From positions 1-33,386 of the forward strand of contig NVTD01000007.1 of the NCBI GenBank assembly GCA_002401445.1: DNA of 33,386 nt, written 5' to 3'. Source of the DNA: Candidatus Wolfebacteria bacterium. GTDB lineage: Bacteria > Patescibacteriota > Minisyncoccia > Phycocordibacterales > GCA-2401445. Of the stretch, positions 1,575 to 18,018 are shown one piece after another. Both the position numbers and the translations under genes were made by a program. The notes beneath the pieces are model-generated. The model did not search any database, had not been told where the DNA came from, and was given only the letters and a program-made list of their open reading frames with translations. Positions within the stretch are counted from its first letter, which is position 1. Each line of letters begins with the position of its first letter.

Positions 1575-2774
1575 TTACTTCTTGTTTCGTCTTAGAAACG
1601 CCGGTACAACACCCCAATCATCATCCTCTTCCTCTGCAGGAGCAATCTCCTTCTTTATTTCAGGCTTTGCTACTGGTGCCGGCTCTATAGAATTAGATAC
1701 AGGAGCGCTTTGAGATGGCGAACTTATGTCGTTGTATATTTTACCTTTTTGTCTTTGCTCCTTTTTCATCAGTGGTTGCATGTCCGGTTCATCAGAGAAA
1801 AGAGATTTTTTTATTCCACCTTCTGGAAAACCGCTTGCAATACAAGTCACTTTAACCTCTCCCTTTTTTAGCTTGTCATCTCGAATTGCTCCAAAGATAA
1901 CCTTTGCATTTGGATCTATAGATTCGGTTATAACTTTTGCAGCTTCTTGAACTTCAAGCATGGTGAGATCGTCGCCCCCAGCAACTGCAAAGAGTACACC
2001 TTTTGCACCAGTAATATCAATTTCAAGAAGAGGGGAATTAATCGCTGCTCGCGCTGCGTCTTGTGCGCGTGTGTCTCCGGTTGAAATACCAATTCCCATA
2101 AGAGCGTCACCAGCATTCTTCATGATTGAACGTATGTCAGCAAAGTCGACATTAATAATACCCGGAGTGGTTATTAAATCCGAAATACCCTCTACTGCAT
2201 TCTTGAGTACTTCATCACATATCGCAAATGCGTTTAGCATTGAAGTTTCCTTTTCAACGATTGCTAGAAGTCTATCATTTGGAACTATAATAATTGCATC
2301 TACTTCACGACGAAGATCCTCTAAGCCATGGTCTGCAATTTGCATACGTTGAACACCTTCAAAACTAAATGGCTTTGTGACAATTGCAACAGTAAGTGCG
2401 CCGCTCTCGCGTGCGGTCTTTGCAACTATGGGACTCGCACCTGTTCCTGTTCCACCGCCATATCCGCAAGCGATGAATACCATGTCAGAGCCTTTGATTA
2501 CTTCTTGGATTTCTTCTTTTGTTTCTTCTGCTGCGCGACGCCCAAGTTCTGGGTTCATTCCGGTTCCAAGTCCACGCGTTAGGTTTTTACCAACGTGAAT
2601 TTTTTTCTTTGCGAGAGAGTTATGAAGATCTTGCGCATCAGTGTTTACCACGACAAATTCAACTCCTTTTACTTTTGAATTTATCATGTGATTAACCGCA
2701 TTGCGTCCAGAGCCACCGACACCGATGACCTTTATTCGTGCGAATGCTTCTACTTCAGGTGTGATTTTTTTCAT
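1575..2774 (-). CDS. ftsZ: Cell division GTPase FtsZ
   Basis: Tubulin-like GTPase that polymerises into the Z ring. It is 399 residues with the complete fold: N-terminal GVGGSGRNAVNHM nucleotide-binding loop near residue 18, tubulin signature GYGGGTGTG at 104-112 (tyrosine where many bacteria have methionine), the T7 synergy loop NVDFADI that completes the neighbour's GTPase site, a disordered linker from about residue 325, and a C-terminal peptide ending WGVVPAFLRRNKK that normally docks FtsA. It lies downstream of ftsA, separated by a terminator, and has its own probable promoter and the structured element at 2775-2899 instead of a Shine-Dalgarno site. Confidence 0.97.
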   Translation of the reverse strand: MKKITPEVEAFARIKVIGVGGSGRNAVNHMINSKVKGVEFVVVNTDAQDLHNSLAKKKIHVGKNLTRGLGTGMNPELGRRAAEETKEEIQEVIKGSDMVFIACGYGGGTGTGASPIVAKTARESGALTVAIVTKPFSFEGVQRMQIADHGLEDLRREVDAIIIVPNDRLLAIVEKETSMLNAFAICDEVLKNAVEGISDLITTPGIINVDFADIRSIMKNAGDALMGIGISTGDTRAQDAARAAINSPLLEIDITGAKGVLFAVAGGDDLTMLEVQEAAKVITESIDPNAKVIFGAIRDDKLKKGEVKVTCIASGFPEGGIKKSLFSDEPDMQPLMKKEQRQKGKIYNDISSPSQSAPVSNSIEPAPVAKPEIKKEIAPAEEEDDDWGVVPAFLRRNKK

Positions 2775-2899
2775 CCCGTTAGAAATAGGAAATGCTAGGC
2801 ATTTCCGTAAATTACTGATAATGGTGTCAAAATTGTTTTAATTTGGGTTTTCATATCTATGTAATAAAATTTGCAGCTCGTATTTCTAACGGGATTCAT
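2775..2899 (-). promoter_or_regulatory. Structured leader element, copy A (upstream of ftsZ)
   Basis: On the minus strand this 125-base element begins ATGAATCCC (2899 downward) and ends directly at the ftsZ ATG. Its terminal arms, CCCGTTAGAAATA and TATTTCTAACGGG, pair perfectly over 13 bases, and over 15 if the neighbouring AT and the AT of the ftsZ start codon are included. An inner hairpin GGAAATGC-CTA-GCATTTCC sits just before the 3' arm. The start lacks any Shine-Dalgarno sequence. Two related copies occur at 16070-16198 and 17505-17634. I infer a cis-acting RNA element or a repeat that became a leader. Confidence 0.7.
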
Positions 2900-15536: not shown

Positions 15537-16070
15537 ATGGTTAGTTTTTTAGATCCCAATACAGCTTTGAATGAATTTGGAGTTGAGCCGGGTATGTTTG
15601 TAGCAGACCTTGGATCAGGTTCGGGATATTATACTTTAGAATCAGCGCGACGCGTTGGCACTGATGGACGTGTTTATGCGGTAGATGTTCAGAAAGAAAT
15701 GCTTGATCGCGTAAAGGATTTTGCTGCAAAGGAGCGACTTTTTAATGTAGAAATTATCTGGGGAGATGTAGAAAATATCGGTGGCACAAAACTGCGTGAC
15801 GGAATGATTGACCGAGCTATTGCATCAAATGTGTTGTTTCAGCTAGAAGACAAGGAGACTTTCTGTAAGGAAGCATATCGTATATTAAAACAAACAGGAG
15901 AGATTCTTGTTTTAGATTGGGCAGAATCATTTGAGAATACTGGTCCAGAGCCAGGATCCATCGTTCCGGAATTTGAGGCAAAGACTTTGTTTGAACAACA
16001 TGGATTTAGTTTTGTGAAAAATGTTACTGCAGGAGCACATCATTACGGATTAGTATTTAAAAAAGGATAA
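15537..16070 (+). CDS. Class I SAM-dependent methyltransferase
   Basis: A 177-residue Rossmann-fold methyltransferase. Motif I is DLGSGSGYY at 24-32, followed by the acidic VYAVDVQKEML that holds the ribose of SAM, and WGDVENI at about 76. The small size and lack of extra domains leave the substrate open; UbiE/MenG-like and rRNA or small-molecule methyltransferases all share this pattern. The start at 15537 is set by the -10 box six bases upstream. Its TAA stop shares a base with the ATG that opens structured element B, so the solute-binding gene may be cotranscribed. Confidence 0.85.
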   Translation: MVSFLDPNTALNEFGVEPGMFVADLGSGSGYYTLESARRVGTDGRVYAVDVQKEMLDRVKDFAAKERLFNVEIIWGDVENIGGTKLRDGMIDRAIASNVLFQLEDKETFCKEAYRILKQTGEILVLDWAESFENTGPEPGSIVPEFEAKTLFEQHGFSFVKNVTAGAHHYGLVFKKG

Positions 16071-16198
16071 TGAATCCCGTTAGAGACCTAACAGTCTGAC
16101 TCGTCACAATATGGTAGAAAGAAAAACAAAAAGTAATACATTGAATCCATTATCAGTAACCTACGGAAACGATAGTATCGTTTCCTGTCTCTAACGCG
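16070..16198 (+). promoter_or_regulatory. Structured leader element, copy B (upstream of the solute-binding protein)
   Basis: This 129-base copy starts ATGAATCCCGTTAGAGAC and ends GTCTCTAACGCG directly before the ATG at 16199. The terminal arms pair over 14 bases with one mismatch and include the AT of the start codon. The inner hairpin is GGAAACGATA-G-TATCGTTTCC (16165-16185), preceded by the conserved ATTATCAGTAA word. The opening ATG would encode a nine-residue peptide (MNPVRDLTV). Confidence 0.75.
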
Positions 16199-17503
16199 AT
16201 GAAAAACACAAGTAAATTTCAGTTAATCTTTCTCGCAATACTTCTCGTATTTGCTGTTATTGGCGTTGCAATATTTGCTCTTTCTGGAGGAGGAAGTCAG
16301 ACAACAGAAGAAGGTGGGACCGCTGGTCCAGTATACGTTTGGGGTACGTTTGATGGGGGAGTTATAAATGATTTGATAAAAGCTGTAAAAGTAGAAAATA
16401 AAGAGTTTGATGTGACTTATACCGAATTACCAGAGAACGGGTTTGACAGGCAGGTAGTTGAAGCAATCGCCAGCGGAAACGGCCCTGATGCAATACTTGT
16501 ACCGCAAAGTTTTTTGGGTAGGTTTAGCGATAAACTGCAACCTCTTTCTTATGAATTTATCTCTGAGAGATCATTTCGTGATGCATACATAGATGGAGCT
16601 GAAATATATCTTGGTGTTGATGGCATATCGGGAATGCCAGTTGCGGTGGATCCTTTGGTAATGTACTGGAACCGTGATCTTGTTGCTGCTGCTGGATTAC
16701 CACGTCAACCAATAACATGGGAAGAATTTCGCAGTGTTGTTTCTCGCTTAACAAAATATCATTCTACTGGGAGTATTACACAAAGCGGTGTAGCGTTTGG
16801 TACATATGACAATATTCTTCATGCAAAAGATATTCTTTCTACATTAATATTACAGACAGGAAATTCTTTGGTCGCTATGGAAGGAGGTAAATATAAATCA
16901 ATTTTAGCTCGTTCATCTTCTGCTGTGTCTTCTCCTTCTGAGTCCGCTCTGACTTTCTACACGGAATTTTCTGATCCAGTAAAGCCAACATATAGCTGGA
17001 ATTTGTCATTAGCAGAGGATCTAAGTAGATTTGTTTCTGGAGATCTGGCACTATATTTTGGATATGCGAGTGAACTTCCAGAAATACAAAAACGGAATCC
17101 AAATCTTAATTTTGATGTGGCATCAATACCTCAACCGGAAGACACTAATAGTCCTCGTGTATTTGGTAATATTTTCGCACTGATGCTTTTGAAAACAGCC
17201 AACAATACTCCTGGCGCTGTTGTTGCTATGCAGTCACTTTCTAGTCAAAGCGCATCTGTTTTCATATCTGGAGCAACTGTATTGCCACCTGTGCAGCGTA
17301 GTTTGCTAGCCGTCCCACAAACTAATAGTTTTGATCCTGTGTTTTACGATTCAGCACTTATTACTCATGGTTGGTATGATCCAAATCCCTCTGACAGCAA
17401 TCGAATTTTTAGAGATATGATACAGTCTGTAATATCAGGGAGAGTAAGGACCTCACGCGCTGTTCGCACAGCAGATGGTGAGCTTAATTCATTGTTGAAC
17501 TAA
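16199..17503 (+). CDS. Extracellular solute-binding protein (ABC family 1 type)
   Basis: A 434-residue periplasmic-binding-fold protein. The N-terminus has one hydrophobic helix (about 8-29) followed by a Gly/Thr linker, so it is membrane-tethered; there is no lipobox cysteine. VYVWGTFDGGVINDLIKAV, ASGNGPDAILVPQSFL and VMYWNRDLVAAAGLP...TWEEF are typical of sugar-type binding proteins. No ABC permease or ATPase lies nearby, so the substrate route is unknown. It sits directly upstream of nine pilin-like genes, and both it and the first of these follow copies of the same structured leader. It may work with that locus rather than with a transporter. Confidence 0.85.
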   Translation: MKNTSKFQLIFLAILLVFAVIGVAIFALSGGGSQTTEEGGTAGPVYVWGTFDGGVINDLIKAVKVENKEFDVTYTELPENGFDRQVVEAIASGNGPDAILVPQSFLGRFSDKLQPLSYEFISERSFRDAYIDGAEIYLGVDGISGMPVAVDPLVMYWNRDLVAAAGLPRQPITWEEFRSVVSRLTKYHSTGSITQSGVAFGTYDNILHAKDILSTLILQTGNSLVAMEGGKYKSILARSSSAVSSPSESALTFYTEFSDPVKPTYSWNLSLAEDLSRFVSGDLALYFGYASELPEIQKRNPNLNFDVASIPQPEDTNSPRVFGNIFALMLLKTANNTPGAVVAMQSLSSQSASVFISGATVLPPVQRSLLAVPQTNSFDPVFYDSALITHGWYDPNPSDSNRIFRDMIQSVISGRVRTSRAVRTADGELNSLLN

Positions 17504-17504
17504 T

Positions 17505-17634
17505 ATGAATCACTTTAGAGATACCAGTGTTACTATACTTAATATCTGTTATGAAAAAAGTAAAGAAAATGATTTTGTATACCAATTATTAATAAACTAT
17601 GGAAACGACATAGTCGTTTCCTATCTCTAACGTG
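17505..17634 (+). promoter_or_regulatory. Structured leader element, copy C (upstream of the first pilin-like gene)
   Basis: The 130-base copy starts ATGAATCACTTTAGAGATA and ends TATCTCTAACGTG before the ATG at 17635. The terminal stem has one mismatch; the CAC/GTG pair replaces CCC/GGG of copy A. The inner hairpin is GGAAACGAC-ATA-GTCGTTTCC (17601-17621). The opening ATG starts a 41-codon ORF ending at 17630, five bases before the next start, which could couple translation. Confidence 0.75.
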
Positions 17635-18018
17635 ATGAAAAAGATACTAATTACATTTTTTATACTGTCCTTGTTCGTACTGCCATTGGTTGTGGGTGCT
17701 GAGGAACATAGATTGGTCCCTTGTGACGATGATTGCGGGTTTAATCATTTGGTTGAACTCGTTAACAATATAATCAATTTTCTAATTTTTTATGTATCTA
17801 TACCGGTTGCGGCAATTGTCTTTGCTGTTGCAGGATTTAAATATGTGACCGCCGCTGGGAATGAGTCAAAAATAAAGGAGGCACATGGAATGTTTTCAAA
17901 AGTAGTTGTAGGACTTATTATTGCATTGTCGGCATTTTTGATAGTTGAATTGATTACGTCTAATCTGCTCGGTGATGACGTCAACATTTTCCTAAGAACT
18001 AATTTTATTGGTGGATAA
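17635..18018 (+). CDS. T4SS-pilin-like membrane protein 1
   Basis: 127 residues: a signal peptide (MKKILITFFILSLFVLPLVV, likely cut after GAE), a short region with CDDDC, then two transmembrane helices separated by a charged loop (AGNESKIKEAHGMFSK). The helix-loop-helix with a GxxxKxxxA-like loop resembles the CPR family called type IV secretion pilin (VirB2/TrbC-like). I use the ATG at 17635 rather than the overlapping GTG at 17632, because the structured element ends there. It opens the nine-gene array and may set its transcription or translation. Confidence 0.7.
   Translation: MKKILITFFILSLFVLPLVVGAEEHRLVPCDDDCGFNHLVELVNNIINFLIFYVSIPVAAIVFAVAGFKYVTAAGNESKIKEAHGMFSKVVVGLIIALSAFLIVELITSNLLGDDVNIFLRTNFIGG

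Follow-up and report, generated by a model that had tools for sequence, protein, structure and literature searches.

The three structured repeats that precede unrelated genes in a contig of a Candidatus Wolfebacteria bacterium (33,386 nucleotides, the whole of which is called the window here; the source genome comprises 1.12 Mb) are most likely, with a probability of about 0.8, non-autonomous and internally deleted derivatives (MITEs) of a compact mobile element of Patescibacteria. Judged on its sequence, the repeat is a MITE-like mobile element lying inside start codons, not a leader that evolved in place. An earlier note on this DNA had proposed selection for RNA structure, possibly in a leader, and had named a mobile palindrome as the alternative; it is the alternative that proves correct.

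The copies had been described as running from ATGAATC to the ATG of the next gene, and all three are present in the window at 2899-2772 (minus strand), 16070-16201 and 17505-17637. Their hosts are confirmed as three unrelated genes, namely ftsZ, a solute-binding protein gene and a T4SS-pilin-like gene (Table 1). The copies thus stand, but their extent does not: the element proper is shorter, 121-126 bp, and the left ATGAA is duplicated target. The element starts 5 bases after the beginning of the left ATG, with TCCCG (TCACT in copy C), is bounded by the inverted repeats TCCCGTTAGA...TCTAACGGGA, and has as its final base the A of the next gene's ATG. TGAA stands on both sides of all three copies. 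The right end of copy B is mutated (CGCGA) and its left ATGAA shares bases with the TAA stop codon of the methyltransferase gene that precedes it (TAATG), while copy C is the most decayed of the three.

Table 1 Element copies in the window, their parts and host genes, and the further copies in the same genome
Feature	Coordinates	Strand	Remarks
Element copy A, 121 bp, TCCCGTTAGA...TCTAACGGGA	2774..2894	-	ends at 2774 with the A of the ftsZ start codon
Copy A, left ATGAA	2895..2899	-	contains left TGAA target-site duplication, 2895-2898
Copy A, right TGAA duplication	2770..2773	-	within ftsZ start (ATGAAA)
Copy A, inner hairpin GGAAATGC/GCATTTCC	2788..2806	-	
Element copy B, 125 bp	16075..16199	+	ends with the A of the start codon of the solute-binding protein gene
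Copy B, left ATGAA with left TGAA duplication	16070..16074	+	
Copy B, right TGAA duplication	16200..16203	+	
Copy B, inner hairpin	16165..16185	+	
Element copy C, 126 bp, TCACTTTAGA...TCTAACGTGA	17510..17635	+	ends with the A of the start codon of the T4SS-pilin-like gene
Copy C, left ATGAA with left TGAA duplication	17505..17509	+	
Copy C, right TGAA duplication	17636..17639	+	
Copy C, inner hairpin	17601..17621	+	
Host gene ftsZ (Tubulin/FtsZ GTPase, FtsZ_C)	1575..2774	-	
Host gene, extracellular solute-binding protein	16199..17503	+	
Host gene, T4SS/TrbC-like pilin	17635..18018	+	
Own-genome copies outside the window, tandem pair	contig C3		before M16 peptidase gene
Own-genome copy outside the window	contig C30		before acylphosphatase gene

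A covariance model was built from six own-genome copies, and its search of the genome returned exactly six strong copies (E 3e-16 or lower), three of them in the window, which is contig C40 of this genome. The suspicion that the repeat is widespread was borne out: of 59 relatives in other families of the order, 16 gave matches, or 17 of 60 genomes with the source genome included, at up to 23 copies per genome. The MNPVR N-termini that the earlier note had mentioned for Parcubacteria proteins have the element as one of their sources (ATGAATCCCGTTAGA). An Rfam search of the window returned tRNAs only and no family for the element. Elsewhere in the source genome (G000:C41, near 26009), partial GGCCCTATCGTCTAACGG repeats beside a tRNA-like gene resemble a duplication left by insertion.

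GTDB genomes were scanned with the pattern TCCCGTTAGAN{88,118}TCTAACGGGA, free of ATG, whose exact ends favour young copies; at least 88 distinct elements were obtained, mostly in Patescibacteria. Among the matches listed, TG directly follows the element in 83 of 88 copies and completes an ATG with its final A, and 75 of these 83 copies lead into an ORF of 60 aa or more, as judged by crude ORF calls. Copies therefore nearly always end at a start codon, as the earlier note had described, although its suggestion that many such matches would speak for a leader is misleading because start codons are where the element inserts. The right flank is repeated at the left in TGAA, TGAG, TGGA, TGCG, TGGG and TGTA pairs: at the 80 non-tandem sites among the matches listed, a perfect 4-bp target-site duplication (TGNR) was found in 54, and the variable NN bases of the duplication agree in 59 against 28 expected. 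Former GTG starts, that of own-genome copy E among them, now read ATG, so the A of the rebuilt start codon comes from the element.

Insertion has also been repeated. Some elements are re-inserted in tandem into the ATG made by an earlier element, and one genome (G372) carries copies 84-98% identical at five unrelated start codons. The secF start is empty in that genome and occupied in its relative G261, where the left duplication has eroded. At one start codon (L058:5898-6279) three elements with two end types are stacked in tandem, and in another locus (L094) several copies are spread across a ribosomal-protein (spc-like) operon with secY. The GTDB genomes also hold a second MITE subfamily, CGCGATCGC...GATCGCGATC, without the inner hairpin and with the outer stem extended past a bulge; at least 7 of 9 pairs form in 27 of 77 tested among the matches listed.

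The same pairs of terminal inverted repeats, with the duplication, also bound elements of ~280 bp (271-282 bp). The ends of these full-length elements are the inverted repeats TCCCGTTAGA[AG][AG][TC], with a second inverted repeat inside, and a scan of 384 genomes of the class turned up versions of 260-290 bp in 33, with 0 control matches. When 30 loci were examined, 24 carried an intact GIY-YIG ORF of ~80-95 aa; two of the other six are non-GIY-YIG (the own-genome tandem pair and one in genome G340), and four look like damaged versions. The ORF, the only one of the full-length element, encodes a single-domain GIY-YIG nuclease (PF01541 in Pfam, E 7e-17 and 3e-18), and its nearest solved structure is 1zg2 (UPF0213, BH0048; E 1.4e-6). 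Its consensus, ..pvr..m.yvYvl.s.k...wYTG.t.DlRKRf.eHn...wTk.rgP..liYyEac.n..DAr.RE.yLKsGmGKRYlkNRLkRFLsLTG*, conserves the Y-Y, YTG, R, H and E of the GIY-YIG catalytic domain. The ORF is under purifying selection, with dN of ~0.08-0.28 at dS of ~0.6-3 and dN/dS of ~0.1-0.2.

The position of this ORF was compared in 29 full-length elements, which comprise the 24 intact-ORF loci and five from elsewhere. The length of the element holds it in frame with the original start codon on the left in 23 of the 29, and the M at that codon still begins the ORF in 14 (MNPVR, MSPVR or MDPVR). The duplicated ATGA provides TGA as the stop in 28 of 29, against 57 of 80 MITEs (p = 0.004). The hosts of full-length elements, as far as their proteins can be read by inspection, are presumably murG, grpE, secF and a transaldolase.

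The window-type elements are internal deletions of this full-length element, as follows from a 127-bp intermediate (L281, genome G160): set against the full-length element of genome G130, it joins 98 bases from the 5' part to 28 from the 3' part. The intermediate still has an open frame (MNPVRDQNLVFYTYIIKSQKSNKWRIGIINNLRKCSKHFLSLTG*) and TGAA duplications, and copy A of the window is identical to it at 90 of 104 aligned positions. Former coding sequence (TNDLRKR and KRFL) accounts for the conserved word ATTATCAGTAA-TTACGGAAA and for the CGTTTCC arm, and in full-length elements the arms of the copy A inner hairpin are coding sequence of the GIY-YIG ORF (LRKR, KRFL). Short elements occur in 21 of 31 genomes with full-length elements against 57 of 353 without (p = 2e-9, shared ancestry ignored); in 10 of the 31 no exact-ended MITE was found. 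The source genome holds no full-length element with the ends of the window copies, and the two of its GIY-YIG genes examined as autonomous partners bear no such ends. A transposase that acts in trans and lacks these ends is possible. A viral vehicle was not seen, given that IMG/VR held no exact-ended copy of the element and the phage collection no protein related to the GIY-YIG ORF.

Taken together, we propose that the GIY-YIG nuclease mobilises itself and its deleted derivatives. Insertion at N^TGNR duplicates TGNR and supplies an A, whereby the downstream gene regains its ATG. The ORF of the full-length element, in phase with the left start, could then use the initiation signals of the host gene, and its stop at the TGA of the duplicated ATGA would hand translation to the host gene by stop-start overlap. 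MITEs have kept the ends and the hairpin and lost the ORF, and in their mRNA the closed stem would place the native initiation region beside the rebuilt ATG; duplication, hairpin and ATGA coupling together would keep host genes expressed. It is likely that the staggered cut of 4 bp comes from the nuclease and that this enzyme also serves MITEs in trans, although we know of no GIY-YIG homing enzyme that leaves 4-bp duplications. For translation through ATGA coupling in full-length elements and through the closed stem in MITEs, we see an even chance.

The target reads N^TGNR, that is, insertion falls between the first and second base of the start codon. Codon 2 has a pyrimidine as its second base in only 1 of 80 sites among the matches listed, against 42% of 574 background starts (p = 7e-18). 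The start position itself, taken by 75 of 83 copies among the matches listed, would be expected for ~27% under neutral non-coding insertion (p = 7e-34). These numbers tilt the balance towards start codons being actively targeted and not merely tolerated. At somewhat under even odds, the position could instead be due to selection only, with insertion at any NTGNR and loss of gene-breaking insertions from a compact genome, a reading that agrees with ours except for targeting. The genomes are indeed dense (12.5% unannotated), and the duplication keeps both genes intact even at ATGA overlaps, which host 8 of 47 insertion sites. Nevertheless, the same loci offer ~914 non-coding ATGNR sites against an estimated ~330 at starts, and insertions into non-coding DNA between convergent genes should do no damage. 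Targeting of promoters or transcription start sites, considered on account of AT-rich upstream sequence, was rejected: 21 of 47 sites are operon-internal and lie at most 30 bases from the end of the upstream gene.

Short terminal repeats with a fixed 4-bp duplication are the classical signature of DDE transposases, and both features of the element fit it. The MITE might accordingly be moved by such an enzyme, with the GIY-YIG ORF a mere passenger. We regard this as unlikely, since no transposase was recognised between pairs of terminal inverted repeats in ~0.9 Mb of loci, the GIY-YIG ORF is the sole protein of full-length elements (24 loci) and is kept by purifying selection, and related GIY-YIG ORFs occur with other end sequences. 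Intervals of 1-3 kb between terminal inverted repeats were tried as transposase carriers and contain host or housekeeping genes instead, which by eye we take to be secY, ribosomal proteins, dnaJ, recR and rnf-like genes.

Much less probable still is an origin of the element at these genes as a cis-regulatory RNA leader (riboregulator) whose stem occludes or exposes the start codon. Such a leader would account for the strong fold (RNA folding z-scores of -6.4, -3.9 and -5.0 for the window copies), the location at start codons with the A of AUG within the stem, and the paired changes, which the earlier note had listed correctly throughout. In the six own-genome copies 93.8% of cells pair over 24 pairs, 7 of the 24 pairs change on both sides, and the covariation score was reached by 0 of 500 shuffles. 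Selection on RNA, however, should prefer G-U over A-C. Across 150 copies, a Watson-Crick pair is present in 140-150 at each of the terminal positions 1-13, and the non-Watson-Crick cells there are ~20 G-U against ~22 A-C. Because G-U is in no excess, the paired changes of the terminal stem look like matching of the ends of a DNA inverted repeat, not like selection on RNA. In the inner hairpin, 518 of 531 cells are Watson-Crick with varied pairs, and the exceptions are few (5 G-U, 3 A-C). A leader is further contradicted by target-site duplications that covary with each gene's own first codons, by re-insertion in tandem and near-identical copies at unrelated starts, by hosts as unrelated as ftsZ, murG, grpE and secF, and by an inner loop that ranges from 3-5 nt up to the nuclease ORF. 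A secondary benefit of the RNA stem is plausible, in that it may bring the native initiation region near the new ATG.

The least credible reading takes the copies for degenerate introns of group I or II, or for spliced elements of another kind, for although CPR rRNA genes are intron-rich (PMC11270868) and the stem brings the ends together, the window gave no Rfam intron match, introns do not normally make target duplications, 121-126 bp is too short for a known core, and a published survey of rRNA genes likens its GIY-YIG insertions to neither type of intron (PMC11270868).

MITEs, GIY-YIG nucleases and palindromic elements are all known already. As far as we can tell, an element bounded by terminal inverted repeats, with only a GIY-YIG nuclease and a start-codon duplication, is new; literature on palindromic repeats, start-codon MITEs and GIY-YIG transposons did not describe it, which is not proof of absence. 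The chances are about balanced that it represents a new transposon class, in which a lone GIY-YIG nuclease encoded in ~280 bp would cut start codons with a 4-bp stagger, the duplication would rebuild the start and supply the stop, the host initiation site would be borrowed and translation handed back through ATGA coupling, and deleted hairpin derivatives would leave the host translatable. UPF0213 or YazA-type proteins share the single domain (B. subtilis YazA is 42% identical to the ORF), whereas the ORF here fills an element bounded by terminal inverted repeats and takes its stop from the target duplication; to our knowledge such proteins have not been recognised as parts of mobile elements. 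HEARO/IscB elements may insert close to ATGA. The full-length element has no Y1 ORF and does have a target duplication, unlike RAYT/REPIN or IS200/IS605, and homing to the homologous site of one gene was not seen among its hosts, which are unrelated and share no flank beyond NTGNR.

Like the bacterial MITEs Correia/NEMIS, ERIC and RUP, the short element has no functional ORF, terminal inverted repeats, a target-site duplication and many copies (PMC2229807); it differs from them in lying in start codons instead of being TA-targeted, and in deriving from a GIY-YIG element and not from a known IS. Rickettsia palindromic elements of 105-146 bp are likewise short, palindromic, mobile and tolerated in genes, including those for tmRNA and RNase P RNA (PMC2229807). 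They are, however, translated inside proteins, and that paper gives no parent or target motif, whereas the element here sits at the start codon and has a parent with a nuclease gene. Translation also makes inserts tolerable in yeast mitochondria and in phage T4 gene 60, whose bypass insert has a link to a homing endonuclease (PMC5009743); those inserts, however, lie within coding sequence and need ribosome hopping, whereas the element here occupies a start codon that is rebuilt. Penelope-like elements also combine a GIY-YIG endonuclease with a transposable element (PMC5718144); they are retroelements with a reverse transcriptase, whereas the 271-282 bp element has none beside its single ~80-95 aa ORF. 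A 2024 survey of CPR rRNA genes reported GIY-YIG ORFs outside a homing context, in insertions unlike either intron group (PMC11270868), which fits the element described here, although the survey covers rRNA genes only and does not mention inverted repeats, target-site duplications or start codons.

If the proposed reading is true, a gene can survive an insertion into its start codon, and the duplication would make the element nearly invisible to its host, even in operons and before ftsZ, murG, grpE and secF. It would then be a minimal transposon of ~280 bp moved by a nuclease class that we have not found described as a lone transposition enzyme. The reading would also explain MNPVR-like N-termini, imply that the element can mislead gene-start annotation in Patescibacteria, and point to what may serve as a tool for placing DNA at start codons.

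The element class may be wider, because related GIY-YIG ORFs with other ends turned up before tRNA genes, within 16S rRNA and within an apparent RNase P RNA. Four loci (L197, L200, L207 and L210) have single-domain GIY-YIG ORFs directly before tRNA genes, with no clear inverted repeats and with 10-13-bp direct repeats of the tRNA start in their flanks, e.g. ATATTCCTCGGTA. Two further loci (L198 and L203) show one GIY-YIG ORF inserted in an apparent 5' part of 16S rRNA (inverted repeat ATGCCACACCTC) and one in an apparent RNase P RNA (inverted repeat CCACGTGAGATAA). Within the source genome (L199, G000:C21:17858-18058), a GIY-YIG gene ends directly at a tRNA-Leu-like gene. GIY-YIG elements with the other ends TCCCGTACGAAAT, TCCCGTAGTAGAATTTT and CCCTGTTAAATAA were seen at L192, L196, L214 and L204, and some of these likewise occupy start codons and have TGGA or TGAG duplications.
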